Part shown: positions 1,153 to 60,572 of the stretch, in pieces
Layout of the letters: the number at the start of each line of letters is the position of its first letter
Numbering within the stretch: the first letter of the stretch is position 1
The notes under the pieces: generated by a model
What the model saw: the letters and a program-made list of their open reading frames with translations, nothing else
Told to the model about the DNA's origin: nothing
Database searches by the model: none
Position numbers and translations under genes: made by a program
NCBI GenBank assembly: GCA_021783235.1
Contig: JAJXUD010000001.1
Coordinates: 183,569 to 247,568, forward strand
Direction of reading: 5' to 3'
Length of the DNA: 64,000 nt
Source of the DNA: Myxococcales bacterium
GTDB lineage: Bacteria > Myxococcota > Myxococcia > Myxococcales > JAKAPL01

Positions 1153-2484
1153 ATGCTACCGGTCATCGCCATCGTCGGACGCCCCAACGTGGGCAAGTCG
1201 ACCCTCTTCAACCGGATCGTCGGGCGGCGCGCCGCCATCGTCGAGGACGTGCCCGGCGTGACGCGCGACCGCCACTACGCCGAGGCCGACTGGGACGGCC
1301 GCCGCTTCACCCTCGTCGACACGGGCGGCTTCTGGACCGACGTCGCCGATCCGCTGCTGCGCGACGTGCGCGCCCAGGCCGAGCTCGCCGTGGCCGAGGC
1401 GGCGCTCGTCGTCCTGGTCGTCGACGGCCGCGCCGGCGTGACCGCCGGGGACCTCGACCTCGCCGCGCGGCTGCGGCGCAGCGGAAGGCCCGTCCTCGTC
1501 GCGGTGAACAAGATCGACTCGGCGCGGACCCTGGCCGAGACGGGCGAGGCCGACTTCTACCGGCTCGGGCTGCCGGAGCTCGTCCACCTCTCGGCCGAGC
1601 ACGGCCGGGGCGTCTCCGATCTGCTCGATCTCGCCGTCCAGCGGCTGCCCGAGCAGACGCCCGTCGAGTCGCCCGCCGAGGAGGGGCTGCCGCGGATCGC
1701 CATCCTCGGCCGGCCGAACGTCGGCAAGTCCACCCTCGCGAACCGGCTGCTCGGCGAGGCCCGCTTCATCGAGAGCCCCGTCGCCGGGACCACGCGGGAT
1801 CCGCTGGACGCGGAGCTGACCTTCCGCGGCCGCCGCTTCATCCTCACCGACACCGCCGGCATCCGGCGCAAGGCGCAGACCTCCGAGGGGCACGAGCTCG
1901 AGAGCACCGATCGGGCGATCGGGGCGCTCGACCGGTCGGACGTCGCGATCGTCGTGATGGACGCCGCCGAGCCGGCGGTGGAGCAGGACGCCCGGCTCGC
2001 GGGCGAGGTGATCGAGCGGACGAAGCCGCTCGTGCTCGCGGTGAACAAGGCCGACCTCGTGAGGGGCGAGGCCGCCCGCAAGCTGGTGCGGGAGACGATC
2101 GAGGAGCGGCTCCCGTTTTTGCCGCAGGGGACGCCGCTCGCCTGGATCTCCGCGACCGCGGGAACCGGCGTCGACCGGCTCTTGCCGCTCGCCGGGCGGC
2201 TCTACGACCAGGCGGACCGGCGCATCTCGACGCCCGAGGTGAACCGCTTCCTGCGCGACGCCGAGGACGCCCACCCGCCGCCCCGGGCCGGCGGCCTGCC
2301 GGTGCGGCTCTACTACATGGCGCAGGTCGGGACCCGGCCGCCGTCGTTTCTGATCCACGTGAACCGGCCGGAGGGGATCACCGAGTCCTACCGCCGCTTC
2401 CTGTCGAACCGGCTGCGGGAGCAGTTCGAGATCGAGGTGCCGGTGCGGCTGGTCTTCAAGAAGCGATCGCGCCGCGGGAGTTGA
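1153..2484 (+). CDS. der: Ribosome biogenesis GTPase Der (double G domain)
   Basis: Two GRPNVGKST P-loops, C-terminal KH-like domain. Confidence 0.97.
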   Translation: MLPVIAIVGRPNVGKSTLFNRIVGRRAAIVEDVPGVTRDRHYAEADWDGRRFTLVDTGGFWTDVADPLLRDVRAQAELAVAEAALVVLVVDGRAGVTAGDLDLAARLRRSGRPVLVAVNKIDSARTLAETGEADFYRLGLPELVHLSAEHGRGVSDLLDLAVQRLPEQTPVESPAEEGLPRIAILGRPNVGKSTLANRLLGEARFIESPVAGTTRDPLDAELTFRGRRFILTDTAGIRRKAQTSEGHELESTDRAIGALDRSDVAIVVMDAAEPAVEQDARLAGEVIERTKPLVLAVNKADLVRGEAARKLVRETIEERLPFLPQGTPLAWISATAGTGVDRLLPLAGRLYDQADRRISTPEVNRFLRDAEDAHPPPRAGGLPVRLYYMAQVGTRPPSFLIHVNRPEGITESYRRFLSNRLREQFEIEVPVRLVFKKRSRRGS

Positions 2485-2547
2485 CAGGGGCGCCCCCGCG
2501 GTTGAAAGTCTGCACCCTTTTGACGGTCTGAACCGAAGGAGACGAAC

Positions 2548-3327
2548 GTGGCACGCGCCGCCGAGAAGCTGGACCGCCATGATCTCAAGGGCGAGGACGC
2601 CTTCGTCGAGATGATGACGCCCCTCGCCGAGGGACTCGAGAAGAACTGGCGCTACGTCGCCATCGCGGTGGGGGTGGCGCTCACCGCCGCCATCGCCGTG
2701 GCCGTGGGCCTCTCGATCTCCTCGAGCCACCGCGAGCGGGCCGCCCGGGCGCTCGGCGCCGCGCTCGCCGACGTGAACAAGCCGGTGGTCGGCGAGGAGG
2801 GCGCGGCCGAGAAGACCGCCGACTCCTTCTCGAGCGAGCAGGAGAAGCAGCGGGCGCTCGCGAAGGCGCTCGAGGCGGTCGTCGTCGGCAAGGCCGGGAC
2901 GCGCGCGGCGGAGACGGCGCTCCTGAGCCTCGGCGACGCGCAGTACCGGCTCGGGCAGTTCGACGACGCGCTCGCGAGCTACCGGAAGTTCTTGGGCGAC
3001 GCGTCGCCCGAGGACACGCTGCGCGCCTTCGCGATGCAGGGCGAGGCGTTCGCGCTGCTCGGGGCGGGGAAGGGCGACGACGCGCTGGCCGCGGCGAAGC
3101 GGCTCGCGCAGGAGCCGCCGGCCGGCTTCGGCCGCGACCTCGGGCTGCTCGCCGAGGGGAGGATCGCCCAGCAGGTCGGCAAGGCCGACGCCGCGAAGGA
3201 GGCCTTCCAGAAGCTCGTCGCCGACTTCCCGACGACCGCCGCCGGGCGCGAGGCGAGCGAGCGGCTCGCCGATCTCGGCGTCACGCCGAAGCAGCCGCCG
3301 TCCCCCTTCGGCAAGAGGACGCCCTAA
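2548..3327 (+). CDS. Membrane-anchored tetratricopeptide protein (YfgM-like)
   Basis: N-terminal TM segment, TPR-like helices, located between der and a BamB-like gene. Confidence 0.75.
   Translation: MARAAEKLDRHDLKGEDAFVEMMTPLAEGLEKNWRYVAIAVGVALTAAIAVAVGLSISSSHRERAARALGAALADVNKPVVGEEGAAEKTADSFSSEQEKQRALAKALEAVVVGKAGTRAAETALLSLGDAQYRLGQFDDALASYRKFLGDASPEDTLRAFAMQGEAFALLGAGKGDDALAAAKRLAQEPPAGFGRDLGLLAEGRIAQQVGKADAAKEAFQKLVADFPTTAAGREASERLADLGVTPKQPPSPFGKRTP

Positions 3328-50150: not shown

Positions 50151-50151
<1 letters not shown>
49258..50151 (-). CDS. P-loop ATPase (AAA/NTPase-like), last gene of the fluoride run
   Basis: LLHGPLGIGKTALLLELERRA, LLLDRLGDV; start approximate. Confidence 0.65.
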
Positions 50152-51502
<1,351 letters not shown>

Positions 51503-51591: not shown

Positions 51592-53325
51592 TCACGACGG
51601 CTCCTCCCCTTCCTTGCGCTGGGGCGAGGCGGCGAGGTCGGCGACGGCCCGCGTCCACCGTTCGATCCGATCGACCTCGGCACGGACCGCCGAGCTGCCG
51701 GCCCGCTGCGCCGCCTGGGCGCGAGCCAGCGCCCTCTCGGCCGACGAGGAGGCCGCGGTCAGCATCGACCGGATCTCGGCCTCGAGCCGCCGCCGGCTCT
51801 CCAGGATTCGCTCGTCGAAATCGTTCTGGACGCGCGTGGCGTTCACCGAGAGCAGCTCGGTCAGGTAGCCCTCCATGACCTTCCTCACGCTGGCCAGCGC
51901 CTGGGCACGCGTCCCAAAGGTGGTCGCGAGCCAGGCGGGAGGCGAGCGGGAGGCCAGCTCCCAGAGCTCCGTGTAGAAGAGCCGGCTACGGCTGCGAAAT
52001 CCGAGCTCTCGGGCGAGCTCGGGCGGGAGCTGCTCGGCCCCGACCAGGCCCGACCGGCCGAGCCGCAGCAGCTCCTCGTTCGCGAGATCGACGAAGCGGC
52101 GCGCGGCAGCCCGGTAGCGCTCCTCGGCGATCGGCTGCTGGGCCTCGAGCCAGCGATCCAGCTGGACCGCCGCGATCCGCTGCGCCTCCTTCGCTGCCCA
52201 CCGCCAGAGCGAGGCCCCGCGGTCTCGGCGGGAGACGAGCTTCTCGCCCAGCTCGAGACGGGCGGCGGCGGCGGCCTGGGCGACGAACGCCTCTCGCTCG
52301 CGCGTCAGCTGCTCCGCGAGCCGCTGCTGCTCCGCCGCGAAGAGATGGCCCAGATCGACGAGGGTCTCTTCGATCGCCACGGCCGCGCGGCGAAGCTCGG
52401 CGATGCGTCCGGCCGTCTCCTCGAGGGGCCGCTCCAGCGCCGCCCGCTGCTCGGTGAGATCGCGCGTCAGACGGCCCACCAGCAGCTGAAACCAGCGCTC
52501 CTCCGAGCGACGCACGAGCAGGGCGCCGCTCTCGGCCGCCAGCCGCTCCAGCCGCTCGACGAGCGCGGACCAGTTCCCCACGCGACGTCCGGCTCTCTCG
52601 GAGAGGCCGGAGACCTCGAGCAGCGGCCCCACCGGGCGTCCGAGCCGCTCGGTCAGGACCCGCCGGCAGAAGGCCCCAGCCACGACCCGCTCCTCCTCGG
52701 TCAGCCGATCGACCTTGTCGAGCACGAAGATGAGCTCGTCGACGTGCCGGGCGACCTCTTCCACGAGGGCCAGCTCGGCGCCCGTGATAGGAGGATCGGC
52801 GCCGAGCACCACGAGCGCCGCGTCGATGTGCGGCACGAAGGCGCGGGTGGCCTCGGTGGCGCCAGCGAAGACCGAGCCCACCCCGGGCGTGTCCACGAGG
52901 CACATTCCGCGATCGAGGAGCGGACTCGGCAGAAGCAGCTCGACCGCGGCGACCGCTTTGCCGTTGTCGGGGTTGCCCTCCTCCGAGACGAACTCCCGGA
53001 GCTCCGCCAGATCGATGTCCCGGCTCCGGCCGTCCCGGAAGCGCACCCGGCCCCGCCGCGGCTCTCCGAAGCGCAGGGTCGTCACCACCGACGTCACCGG
53101 CACCACGCCGACCGGCAGCACGTCCTCGCCGATGAGCGCGTTGACGAGCGTGGACTTCCCCCGCTTGAACTGCCCCAGGCAGGCCACGTGGAAGAGCCCC
53201 TCGCGCAGCCGCTCGGAGAGCCCGTGGGCCTCCGAGACGAGGCTCTCCACCCCCGCCTGTTCGGCGAGTCGGGTCAGCTCGTGGAGCCGGTCCGAGGCCG
53301 GCGATCCGGGCGAGAGCTCGGCCAT
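51592..53325 (-). CDS. Bacterial dynamin-like GTPase
   Basis: LGQFKRGKSTLVNALIGEDVLPVGVVPVTSVVT, VDTPGVGS, VLDKVD; long helical C-terminus. Confidence 0.85.
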   Translation of the reverse strand: MAELSPGSPASDRLHELTRLAEQAGVESLVSEAHGLSERLREGLFHVACLGQFKRGKSTLVNALIGEDVLPVGVVPVTSVVTTLRFGEPRRGRVRFRDGRSRDIDLAELREFVSEEGNPDNGKAVAAVELLLPSPLLDRGMCLVDTPGVGSVFAGATEATRAFVPHIDAALVVLGADPPITGAELALVEEVARHVDELIFVLDKVDRLTEEERVVAGAFCRRVLTERLGRPVGPLLEVSGLSERAGRRVGNWSALVERLERLAAESGALLVRRSEERWFQLLVGRLTRDLTEQRAALERPLEETAGRIAELRRAAVAIEETLVDLGHLFAAEQQRLAEQLTREREAFVAQAAAAARLELGEKLVSRRDRGASLWRWAAKEAQRIAAVQLDRWLEAQQPIAEERYRAAARRFVDLANEELLRLGRSGLVGAEQLPPELARELGFRSRSRLFYTELWELASRSPPAWLATTFGTRAQALASVRKVMEGYLTELLSVNATRVQNDFDERILESRRRLEAEIRSMLTAASSSAERALARAQAAQRAGSSAVRAEVDRIERWTRAVADLAASPQRKEGEEPS

Positions 53326-53380: not shown

Positions 53381-53788
53381 TTACGCGAGGTCGAGCCGCG
53401 ACCACGGCCGCGCGGTCAACCAGCGGGCGATGAACAGGCCGGCGGCGCCGGCCGAGAGGCAGAGCAGCACGGTGACGGCCACGTTCAGGCAGCCGAGCAG
53501 CCAGGCGCCCTGCTGGAAGAGCGAGAGCGACTCGTAATCGAAGGTCGAGTAGGTGGTGAAGCCCCCCATGACGCCCGTGGTGAGCGCCAGCCGGAGATCT
53601 GGCCCGATCAGGGCGGTCGTGAGGCTCAGGTACATGATGCCGGCGATGAGAAACGAGCCGATCGCGTTGACGGAGAGGGTGCCGTAAGGGAAGGAGGCGC
53701 CCGCGACCCGGGCCACCCAGCCCGCGAGCAGGTAGCGAGTCCCGCTCCCGAGGCCTCCGCACGACAGCACGAGTAGGAGTCTCTTCAT
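53381..53788 (-). CDS. crcB: Fluoride channel CrcB/Fluc
   Basis: GGLGSGTRYLLAGWV, FPYGTLSVNAIGSFLIG-like, TGVMGGFTTYSTFDYE. Confidence 0.95.
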   Translation of the reverse strand: MKRLLLVLSCGGLGSGTRYLLAGWVARVAGASFPYGTLSVNAIGSFLIAGIMYLSLTTALIGPDLRLALTTGVMGGFTTYSTFDYESLSLFQQGAWLLGCLNVAVTVLLCLSAGAAGLFIARWLTARPWSRLDLA

Positions 53789-53927: not shown

Positions 53928-54413
53928 CTACTCTCCGCCCGGGGCTTCCTCGGCGGCGGCTAAGGGATTGGTCGCGGCGACGTGGTCGATGGGCAGGCTG
54001 ATTCCATCGGCCTTCAGGTACTCGACCCGATGGGCTGCCGGCAGCAGCTCACCGGTCTCCACGGGAGGCGACACCTGGACCCCCTCGAGCATGACGAGCG
54101 TCGCCTCCCGCAGCATCTTCGCCTCCTGCCGCACGAACTGCTCGAGGAGCGGCTTCGGCCCCACCAGCTCGATGCAGACCGGAAGCGTGGCGAGCGGGAT
54201 CTCCTGGACGTCCATGGAGACCGCCTTGGCGTCCCGCGAGAAGCCCATGTGCCCCAAGCTGAGGGAGGCGTGGGTGACGCCGGCCTTCAAGGATTGCTGC
54301 AGCAGGTGGGTGGCGAGCGGTCGCCGGAACAGCCGCTGCCAGAACGTCGCGGGAAGCGCGTTGTCCCCACGGCGGAGGTAGATGCGCAGGGCGCACATCG
54401 TCTGAAACGTCAT
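53928..54413 (-). CDS. DUF190 family protein
   Basis: Two ferredoxin-like halves, between crcB and ClC genes. Confidence 0.8.
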   Translation of the reverse strand: MTFQTMCALRIYLRRGDNALPATFWQRLFRRPLATHLLQQSLKAGVTHASLSLGHMGFSRDAKAVSMDVQEIPLATLPVCIELVGPKPLLEQFVRQEAKMLREATLVMLEGVQVSPPVETGELLPAAHRVEYLKADGISLPIDHVAATNPLAAAEEAPGGE

Positions 54414-54468: not shown

Positions 54469-56232
54469 TCAGGCCGCTCGCTCGGCGGTGGCCTGCCCGC
54501 GCGCCCGGTAGAGATCCGATCGCGAGACGATTCCCACGAGCCGGTAGCTGCCCGGATCGACGATCGGCACGTAATCGGCCGTGCCGCCCCCGAGCAGCCG
54601 CTCGGCGTCGGCGGCAGAGTGATGAGGACAGAGCGTCGGAACACGGGCGTCCAGCAGTTCGAGCACGACGGCCCGCTTCCACTCGACCATCGGGACCCTC
54701 CGGAGCTGGGCGAGCCCGACCATCCCCTGGAAGATTCCCCGTTCGTCGATGACCGGGAGCGCCTTGAACTGGTGGCCGACCAGAACCGAGTGCGCGAACG
54801 ACTCGAGCGTGACGTCTGGAGAGGTGGTGACGATGCGCCGGGTCATGATCCGTTCGAGCGGGACAGTCCCGAGCTTCTCGTCGAGACCGGGCCGCTTCTT
54901 GCGTTGCGCGTGAGAATTCGAGACGCCCGCGGAGACCAGAAACGCGACCGTCGAGGCGATGAGAGCGGGAGCGACCAGGAACACGTTGCCGGTGGCCTCG
55001 GCGACGAACACGGCGGAGAACAGGAGGCTGTTGTAGCTGGCGGCCGAGAAGCCTGCGATCCCCAGGATCGTGTAGACCCCCGGATGGCCATGGGACAGCA
55101 GCGCATCCCAGCAGGCGCCCAGCGCCGCCCCGATGGTCGCCGTGGGAACGAACAGCCCGCCGACGCCGCCGCTCCCGAACGTCACGGCGGTGGCCAGCAG
55201 CTTCAAAGAGAAGATGACCAGACAGGCCCAGAGCACGTACTGGCCGTTCAGCAGTCGATTGGCGACCGGCAGCCCCGCCTGAAGCGTGACCGGGCTTCCA
55301 ACGGCTCGGTACGCTGCGTACGCGATGGCGACGAGCGCCACGCCTCCGATCCCGGTTCGGACGTAGATCGGGAAGGGCATGTCGCCGAAGCGCTTCCGAA
55401 TCCGCCGCAGGGTCGCCAGAAAGAGGTGCGAAGCGAGGCCGGCGCTGACGCCCAGCGGAACCGCGACCAGCATGTCGCGCGTCGAGAGCTCATAGTGAAA
55501 CCGAATTGGGAAATAGGGCGAGCCCGGCCGCAAGCGGCTGAAGATCCAGAACGACGTCGCCGACGCGACGAGCCCGGGCGCGAGCGCGTCCAGCGCGAGG
55601 TCGTGCTTGTATGGCGACTCGATCCCCATGATCGCCCCGGAGAGCGGTGCGCGGAAGATCGCGGCGATCCCGGCGGCGCCCCCCGCGAGGAGCGTCGTCC
55701 GCCGATCCCAGTGAAACGCCCGGAGCTTCAGCGCATTCAGGCGGCCCTGAACGAGCGTGCCGATGGTGGCCCCGAGCCACTTGCTCGCCCCCTCCATCCC
55801 CGCGCTTCCCCCGAAGCCCATGGTCGCGACCGAGGCCACGAGCTTCGCGCCGGCGGTGTCCATTGGAATTCCAGACTCGGGATCGTGGTAGGCTTTCACG
55901 ACCTCGTCCGCCATCGCGGACGAGCGAACTCGAAACCAGTGCAGGACGAGTCCCGTGAGCAGCATCCCCAGCGCCGGCAGGGCGAGTCGCGCGGGGATGC
56001 CGAGCTCGGCAAATCGCTTCCAGAGAAGCTCGTTGACGACCCAATCATAAGCGGCGATGGCAGCGCCGACGACCAGCCCGAGGGGCGCGACGACGAGCAG
56101 CAGGTGGCGCGCCACCGACAGACTCTCGCCGAGCGATTGCCCCAGCGGGGTCAGCCCATCGTCTTCGCGCTCGGTCGCCACGTACCCCATCCTCCTGACG
56201 AGCTGCCTCGCGCCGCTCCGGCTACGTCCCAT
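54469..56232 (-). CDS. ClC-family anion channel/antiporter with CBS domains (fluoride-type by context)
   Basis: GFGGSAGMEGASKWLGA, GGAAGIAAIFRAPLSGAIMGIE, FGSGGVGGLFVPTATIGA; C-terminal CBS pair. Confidence 0.92.
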   Translation of the reverse strand: MGRSRSGARQLVRRMGYVATEREDDGLTPLGQSLGESLSVARHLLLVVAPLGLVVGAAIAAYDWVVNELLWKRFAELGIPARLALPALGMLLTGLVLHWFRVRSSAMADEVVKAYHDPESGIPMDTAGAKLVASVATMGFGGSAGMEGASKWLGATIGTLVQGRLNALKLRAFHWDRRTTLLAGGAAGIAAIFRAPLSGAIMGIESPYKHDLALDALAPGLVASATSFWIFSRLRPGSPYFPIRFHYELSTRDMLVAVPLGVSAGLASHLFLATLRRIRKRFGDMPFPIYVRTGIGGVALVAIAYAAYRAVGSPVTLQAGLPVANRLLNGQYVLWACLVIFSLKLLATAVTFGSGGVGGLFVPTATIGAALGACWDALLSHGHPGVYTILGIAGFSAASYNSLLFSAVFVAEATGNVFLVAPALIASTVAFLVSAGVSNSHAQRKKRPGLDEKLGTVPLERIMTRRIVTTSPDVTLESFAHSVLVGHQFKALPVIDERGIFQGMVGLAQLRRVPMVEWKRAVVLELLDARVPTLCPHHSAADAERLLGGGTADYVPIVDPGSYRLVGIVSRSDLYRARGQATAERAA

Positions 56233-57091
56233 CGGCGGAATCCGAGTCCAGTCGCCGGACCAGGACGACCGTCACGTTGTCGACGCCGCCCGCCGCGTTG
56301 GCCGCATCCACCAGCCGAGAGCAGGACTCCGTCAGGCTCGAACCGCCCCCAAGGATCCCGGCGATCGCCGGGTCTTCGACCATGCCGTGCAGGCCGTCGC
56401 AGCAGAGCAGCAGCAGATCGCCAGGCCGCAGATCGAGCGCCGAGCACTCGATCTCCACGTTCGCCGCTGGCCCCAGCGCCCGGGTGACGACGTTCTTGTA
56501 GGGGAAGGCTCGAATCGCTTCCGCGGAGGGGTGCGACCGGCGGATGAATTCTTCGAGGAGCGAATGATCCGAGGTGACCGGCCTCAGCGCCCCGTCGCGA
56601 AAGAGGTAAGCCCGACTGTCGCCCGCGTGGGCGATGAAGCTTCGCTCGGGAGAGAGCAGCGCCGCCACGACCGTCGTGCCCATGTTGGACTTGGCCGATT
56701 CCCGCTTCGCCTCGGCTCGGATCCGCTCGTTGGCCCAGCGCAAAGCCACCTCGAGGCGACCGGCCTCGTCACCCTGCCCCGGCTCCGCCCGATGGGGCCA
56801 GGTCGCATCGGGATCGCGCGCGGTTCGTTCGAGGAACTCAGCGGTGACCGCGACGGCCAACTCTGCGGCCACCTCTCCAGCCGAGTGCCCCCCCATCCCG
56901 TCACAGACCATGAAGAGTCCCAGATCGGGCCGCGCCGCGAAACGATCTTCGTTGTGATCCCGGACTCTTCCGACGTCGGTGGCCGCGGCCCACTCCCAGA
57001 GGGAAGCGGCGTCGGACCGAAGCGGCACCGGGCCCGCTCCGCCGGGAGCGGCTACGGCCGAAGAGCGCTTGGGATCGACGTTCGAAGACAT
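56222..57091 (-). CDS. PP2C-family protein phosphatase
   Basis: TDVGRVRDHNEDRF, VCDGMGGHSAGEVAA, DNVTVVLVR. Confidence 0.93.
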   Translation of the reverse strand: MSSNVDPKRSSAVAAPGGAGPVPLRSDAASLWEWAAATDVGRVRDHNEDRFAARPDLGLFMVCDGMGGHSAGEVAAELAVAVTAEFLERTARDPDATWPHRAEPGQGDEAGRLEVALRWANERIRAEAKRESAKSNMGTTVVAALLSPERSFIAHAGDSRAYLFRDGALRPVTSDHSLLEEFIRRSHPSAEAIRAFPYKNVVTRALGPAANVEIECSALDLRPGDLLLLCCDGLHGMVEDPAIAGILGGGSSLTESCSRLVDAANAAGGVDNVTVVLVRRLDSDSADGT

Positions 57092-57111
57092 GACTCCCAC
57101 TCGGAACCCAC

Positions 57112-57170
57112 GGTGGTAGGAGTCATCAGCCGGGCGGACCGGCGCTCAAAGGCGAACTCCATCGCCTCGA
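57112..57170 (-). ncRNA. Fluoride (crcB motif) riboswitch
   Basis: Minus strand GAGGCGATGGAGTTCGCCTTTGAGCGCCGGTCCGCCCGGCTGATGACTCCTACCACC matches the aptamer (GGCGATGGnGTTCGCC ... GCTGATGACTCCTACC). Confidence 0.96.
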
Positions 57171-57394
57171 ATTGATCGTCAGAATAGCCTCGCAGGCAGC
57201 CACGCGTCAAGGAAATCGAGCCTTGCACTGCCCCGCCTTCGGTTGCCCTCTCCCGCTTCAGGGATCCCGGATTCTCACCGACCGTCAGGGGGCAACCGCG
57301 TCTCTCGGAGCACGGAATCGAGAGGCCGCTCCGCGCTCGCGAGGCGCGAGACGCGCAAGCGGCACTTGCGCGTCCCTGCCGCGGAGAGTTCCGT

Positions 57395-60102: not shown

Positions 60103-60322
60103 CCCCTCGCGAGGCGCCGTCGCAGGGAAGGCCGCGCCGACGCGCCGGGAGCACGGCTCCGAGGGCCAGCGCGAGGGCAGTGGCTCGCGGGAGCCAGCGT
60201 GACGGACAGGGCCAGCGCCCACGGGGCCTCGGCGGTCCTCTTCCGGCAGGCGGCCAAGTCGAAGAAGCCCCCGTCATCCTTCGTGAATCCCGGCGGACTC
60301 CGAGCGTCATCAATGGATTCGG

Positions 60323-60572
60323 CCGGACTCTCGCCGGAGGCGCCGGGACTCTCGACGAGAGTCGCGGGACTCTCATCGAGAGTCGCCGGACTCTCGCTGC
60401 GATCGCGCGGACTCTCATCGAGAGTCTCGGGACTCTCGATGCGATCGCGCGGACTCTCACCGAGAGTCTCGGGACTCTCGATGCGATCGCGCGGACTCTC
60501 ACCGAGAGTCCCGGGACTCTCGATGCGATCGCGCGGACTCTCACCGAGAGTCCCGGGACTCTCGTCGAGAGA
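60323..60572. repeat. Palindromic 21/42-bp repeat array (REP-like)
   Basis: Repeated GGACTCTC(nnn)GAGAGTC hairpins alternating with GGACTCTCGATGCGATCGCGC units. Confidence 0.9.

Follow-up and report, generated by a model that had tools for sequence, protein, structure and literature searches.

Fluoride riboswitches form a well-studied class, and fluoride regulons are known to contain exporters together with additional copies of enzymes that are sensitive to fluoride. In a study that describes aptamer and expression platform as overlapping, fluoride riboswitches from Pseudomonas syringae and Burkholderia pseudomallei served as translational controls (PMC13273304), and terminators overlapping the motif have been reported as well (PMC2864571). 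With respect to the genes that are controlled, the Enterobacter cloacae FRM fluoride operon has the composition ppaC-uspA-eno-gpmA-crcB-orf5249 (PMC5533749). Duplication of enolase under a fluoride riboswitch has also been described, in a paper that discusses phosphatases too and leaves PP2C enzymes unmentioned (PMC11139923).

Here we analysed a stretch of 64 kb of DNA (the window), in which a fluoride riboswitch is followed on the minus strand by genes for a PP2C-type phosphatase, a CLC-type antiporter, a DUF190 protein, CrcB, a dynamin-like GTPase and enolase, in this order (Table 1). As the best explanation of the locus as a whole, we consider it likely that the riboswitch switches on an operon for fluoride resistance at the level of translation. 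The riboswitch resembles those of P. syringae and B. pseudomallei (PMC13273304) in P1, P2 and P3, in the shared 3' strand of the aptamer and in its place before exporter genes. It differs from them in two unusual linker positions, in a start codon that lies within a hairpin, and in having a PP2C gene as the first gene. Like the E. cloacae FRM operon (PMC5533749), the operon is riboswitch-led and multigenic, and contains an exporter, an enolase copy and duplicated fluoride-sensitive enzymes. However, PP2C, CLC and DUF190 are absent among the genes named for E. cloacae, orf5249 aside, and the operon in the window is without pyrophosphatase and UspA. The riboswitch itself is an ordinary member of its class and the interest lies in the genes that it controls; the operon appears to be a variant with a new, possibly undescribed regulon member, the dynamin-like GTPase. 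Elsewhere in the window, at about 60290-60560, a repeated LSTRVAGLSSRVAGLS-like tract is present in ORFs of both strands and looks like a tandem repeat region.

Table 1. Features of the riboswitch and operon (window positions).
Feature	Position	Strand	Basis and remarks
Promoter-like site TTGACG-18-TATTCT, sigma-70-like	57181..57210	-	9/12 consensus positions; predicted start at about the first aptamer base
Fluoride riboswitch aptamer	57110..57175	-	RF01734, 46.0 bits; R1, 56.4 bits
P1 hairpin GGCG-AUGGAGUU-CGCC	57151..57166	-	RF01734 alignment
P1 loop GGAGUU, 5' strand of pseudoknot P3	57160-57155	-	RF01734 alignment
J1/2 linker GAG	57145..57147	-	23-riboswitch alignment; AAC or AAT in nearly all relatives
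P2 hairpin GCCGG-UCCGC-CCGGC	57129..57143	-	RF01734 alignment
Switch strand AUGACUCCUAC	57116..57126	-	GACUCC with P1 loop, ON; whole strand with 57100-57090, OFF
OFF hairpin 3' arm GUGGGAGUCAU	57090..57100	-	Includes SD-like GGGAG (57098-57094), GTG (57100-57098) and the first two bases of the ATG (57091-57089)
PP2C-type Ser/Thr phosphatase	56222..57091	-	PF13672, E 1e-18; best solved relative 5iti
CLC-type anion transporter, two CBS domains	54469..56232	-	PF00654; ORF overlaps PP2C ORF by 11 bp
DUF190 protein	53928..54413	-	PF02641; start MTFQTM by similarity to L034; ORF open to 54644
CrcB/Fluc fluoride channel	53381..53788	-	PF02537; TIGR00494, 81.9 bits (cut-off 80.45)
Dynamin-like GTPase of riboswitch-linked family	51592..53325	-	PF00350, E 2.6e-26
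Enolase, second copy	50151..51472	-	One frameshift in assembly

The comparative data support the view that the aptamer is a genuine fluoride-sensing one of ordinary class membership. Its Rfam match (57175-57110, E 1.4e-9) lies above the curated gathering cut-off of RF01734, 34 bits, and covers all model positions, 1-64; it is the sole Rfam match within the window and the single fluoride riboswitch found genome-wide. The higher score in Table 1 was obtained with a covariance model, R1, built from riboswitches of the phylum, the window's own aptamer among them. We also aligned 23 riboswitches of the phylum, including that of the window and excluding the weak RF01734 matches L021-L023. P1 and P3 are paired in all 23, and in P2 three of four pairs show changes in both partners. 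Furthermore, 97.0% of the cells in this alignment are paired, against 33-60% when the partners are slid, and the covariation score is 0.223, against 0.093 in shuffles. Exporter-type genes (CLC-type and CrcB) lie downstream on the same strand, with the aptamer in the position of their 5' UTR. The class named in the preliminary description was correct, and so was the pairing that it proposed between GACTCC and a GGAGT loop; however, this loop belongs to the first hairpin, P1, and not to P2, and the strand had to be corrected to minus. The preliminary description stopped at the PP2C gene, short of the remaining and more interesting operon genes.

The aptamer strand GACUCC (57124-57119) is followed by GUGGGAGUCAUG at 57100-57089, and it can enter two mutually exclusive pairings. 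The six pairs of P3 are worth -6.7 to -8.1 kcal/mol, and the OFF hairpin formed by AUGACUCCUAC and GUGGGAGUCAU has 11 bp and -16.3 kcal/mol alone, which makes it about 8-10 kcal/mol stronger. Because of this difference we infer that switching would have to be kinetic, with the outcome set by which helix forms first as the RNA is transcribed. Downstream of the aptamer strand, its complement reaches -18.0 kcal/mol, a value attained in 53 of 5000 shuffles that keep dinucleotides (p about 0.011). Equally strong duplexes were found at 1609 of 4000 random positions in the window, which is GC-rich. Since strong duplexes are common in such DNA, energy alone is unremarkable, and we dropped this comparison in favour of the shuffle test and of recurrence in relatives, the case being made by recurrence and by the position of the hairpin in the start region. 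The folding energy of the whole leader was dropped as evidence too, as it is not unusual (z -0.22 against shuffles).

Comparison of 116 riboswitches, taken from relatives and from dynamin loci, provides stronger evidence for the platform than the shuffle statistics. In 78 of them the aptamer strand has a pairing partner further downstream (p<=0.05); the partner sequences vary, and the extension beyond CUCC differs on both sides from one riboswitch to another. Moreover, 12 riboswitches have an AUG at the end of the arm, and in 9 of these it is the start of an ORF of 100 aa or longer (binomial 0.004 for an expected one third, kinship ignored). It had been proposed previously that GACTCC pairs with GGGAGTC ahead of the PP2C ATG and that fluoride thereby releases the ribosome-binding site. 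The pairing is confirmed, although as part of a helix of 11 bp and not of 6-7. As to the translational switch, the exclusive pairings, the lack of a terminator and the same architecture in many of the 116 riboswitches speak for it, as does a simple folding model in which GGGAG is unpaired 0.1% when free and about 20% when P3 is imposed. The release is not clean, however: the spacing between GGGAG and the ATG, 2 nt, is shorter than usual, and in the same rough model the accessibility of the ATG drops from 0.32 to 0.03 with P3 imposed.

The site TTGACG-18-TATTCT is the sole promoter-like site found in the leader (0.0 expected in shuffles; a consensus match only). It ends just 5' of the aptamer, so that the RNA probably starts with the aptamer. 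A scan of the leader for terminator-like sites found none, and no U run follows the OFF hairpin. Given a promoter-like site directly next to the aptamer and the lack of a terminator behind it, control of the PP2C start at the level of translation is the most likely reading. We regard it as unlikely that the riboswitch acts instead on transcription, through intrinsic or Rho-dependent termination. On the one hand, a U run is present behind the equivalent hairpin in 37 of the 116 related riboswitches, and Rho acting on untranslated RNA would shift both levels together. On the other hand, the riboswitch in the window is among those without such a run or a terminator-like site, and a start codon lies inside its hairpin.

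The reading of translational control also depends on where the PP2C gene begins. The encoded protein has 289 aa from the ATG and 292 aa from the GTG at 57100. A further GTG is present at about 57028, which is codon 25 from the GTG start; it has a GGAG 8 nt upstream and lies outside the OFF hairpin. If PP2C started there, the hairpin would be a by-product of the aptamer strand and would leave translation uncontrolled. The spacing of 8 nt, compared with 2 nt for the ATG, fits this start, as does the fact that the PP2C domain begins only after residue 35. Yet we think it improbable, in view of the shuffle result for the hairpin complement, the recurrence of the AUG-in-arm layout across other lineages, and a paralog in the same genome (G000:C91, 64% identical) whose N-terminal tail is similarly long, which favours the upstream start.

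The PP2C protein matches the general Pfam PP2C families and scores 224.5 bits with the NCBIfam Stp1/IreP model NF033484, below the cut-off of 230. In a phylogenetic tree it clusters with PP2C proteins from the same taxonomic family (99/98) on a long branch (0.71); the program flags a meeting of long branches. Judged by these sequence relationships, it is most likely a diverged duplicate. Among the loci examined, PP2C stands beside a fluoride riboswitch at this locus only, and PP2C as a recurrent gene of fluoride riboswitches was rejected, with 0 of 80 dynamin loci and no other riboswitch locus of the phylum. The 29 best PP2C relatives are without a fluoride riboswitch, save for one match of 15.7 bits (L179) that we take as chance, and no paper joining the two was found in the open literature.

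With control of the PP2C start by the riboswitch as the favoured reading, the operon may function as follows. Without fluoride, AUGACUCCUAC would pair with GUGGGAGUCAU and mask the PP2C start codon and the region where ribosomes bind. Upon binding of Mg-fluoride, GACUCC would be kept in the pseudoknot with the P1 loop and the start region would be freed. Ribosomes could then pass from PP2C into the overlapping CLC gene by translational coupling, and strand and spacing suggest that the remaining genes are on one mRNA. Fluoride would be exported by the CLC-type protein and CrcB, with DUF190 and the dynamin-like GTPase, which is regularly encoded near fluoride riboswitches and perhaps acts on the membrane, being produced along with them. 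Enolase and PP2C would serve as spare metal-dependent phosphoryl enzymes, probably replacing fluoride-poisoned housekeeping copies.

Among solved structures, the closest relative of the CLC protein is the CLC-F fluoride/proton antiporter 6d0j (E 1.5e-16), which is likewise riboswitch-linked. The protein differs from 6d0j in its selectivity motifs, ESGIP and GMEGA, and in two added CBS domains, and its transport activity is putative. In L029, L032 and L034 a gene for this type of CLC comes first after the riboswitch, and the riboswitch-linked proteins may form a fluoride-type clade separate from CLC-F. In the CLC proteins of the window, L029 and L034, GMEGA replaces GREGP and the central serine residue is variable. 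The enolase gene is split by the frameshift after VGDEGGF, which may reflect decay or an assembly error; the other enolase copy of the genome is at G000:C90:13286-14122.

It should be noted that the G at 57147 and the G at 57145 are unique to the window among the 23 aligned riboswitches, and that a GAG linker in place of AAC could weaken ligand binding. These two changes, together with the frameshifted enolase, might be taken as signs of an aptamer that has decayed or does not bind. We consider this very unlikely, as the aptamer scores 46 bits and retains every paired element and the other near-invariant positions, and the ORFs of five of the six operon genes are intact.

Other fluoride riboswitch loci show further arrangements. 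L033 (G046:C207) has two divergent riboswitches, at 2422-2486 (-) and 2618-2680 (+); one lies 12 nt before a dynamin-like gene and the other about 200 nt before a glutamine synthetase-like gene, an unusual neighbour. In L030, L036, L039 and L044 the riboswitch is followed by a gene that, by the look of its sequence, is Na/H exchanger-like and, in L044, by a HyfC-like formate hydrogenlyase gene. L048, L050, L059 and L125 contain 3 to 5 riboswitches per locus of about 10-14 kb, with terminators on some.

In the window, 4 kb separate the riboswitch from the downstream gene for the dynamin-like GTPase, a protein that keeps all of the GTPase motifs G1-G4. This protein shares the GTPase domain and a long helical neck/trunk with BDLP (2j68/2j69), IniA (6j72) and the Campylobacter jejuni DLP pair (5owv), from which it differs as a separate, riboswitch-linked family. 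An AlphaFold model (pLDDT 88.5) has IniA and BDLP as best solved matches at 16-19% identity and a TM-score of about 0.4, a fold match that would be consistent with a dynamin-like protein in a different conformation. Elsewhere in the phylum, a gene for this type of dynamin comes first behind the riboswitches of L027, L031 and L037 and behind the second riboswitch of L033 (L033b). Dynamin remnants are present in L040 (G055:C1) and L028 (G168:C71), after crcB and after a riboswitch, which suggests loss of the gene.

A scan of GTDB genomes with four riboswitch-linked dynamins as query detected 413 relatives, and DNA was retrieved for the best 80 of them. Fluoride riboswitches were detected with the phylum covariance model at 70 of these best 80 loci, and the Rfam RF01734 model confirmed the riboswitch at 13 of 13 loci tested. 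By estimated gene starts, the riboswitch lies <=400 nt upstream of the dynamin gene at 48 of these best loci; with full-length ORFs this number is 45 of 70, at a median distance of 98 nt. At three of the ten loci without a riboswitch (L049, L060 and L078) the contig ends just before the gene. By chance, about 0.02 riboswitches would be expected in the 0.85 Mb concerned, as estimated from the density in the phylum (26 matches, weak ones counted, in 197 genomes of several Mb). According to record names, the lineages include Myxococcales, Acidobacteria, Desulfobacterota, Synergistota, Brocadia, Desulfotomaculum and Desulfotruncus, together with two archaeal records, methanogen-type archaea being among the lineages. 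Although all four proteins in the query alignment were riboswitch-linked and the 80 loci rank highest in similarity among the 413, an artefact of this choice is hardly credible, since the link continues to about 25-30% identity across many phyla and archaea, far exceeds the chance expectation and was confirmed by the Rfam model at every locus tested. Within the phylum, the link looks specific to one dynamin family. Among 30 phylum dynamin loci fetched, only three family members and two remnants have a riboswitch in their 1.5-kb flanks (L127, L129, L130, L145 and L149); L131, a family member by score, has none in this range, and neither has any of the other, lower-scoring dynamins.

We found no paper in the open literature that links a fluoride riboswitch with a dynamin; this search did not include the founding paper, Baker 2012, so that prior notice is possible. 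On balance, we lean towards the view that this dynamin family, which spans many bacterial phyla and extends to archaea, is a dedicated and undescribed fluoride-stress factor under riboswitch control that protects membranes or exporters, and that the duplicated PP2C joins the same response in this operon. By analogy with IniA and BDLP, protection of the membrane is our first guess for the role of the dynamin, and our second is that it substitutes for a fluoride-sensitive GTPase. The link between dynamin and riboswitch suggests that fluoride damages membranes or a GTPase and that cells have a genetic response to this damage, and it would supply a concrete inducing signal for a bacterial dynamin family.
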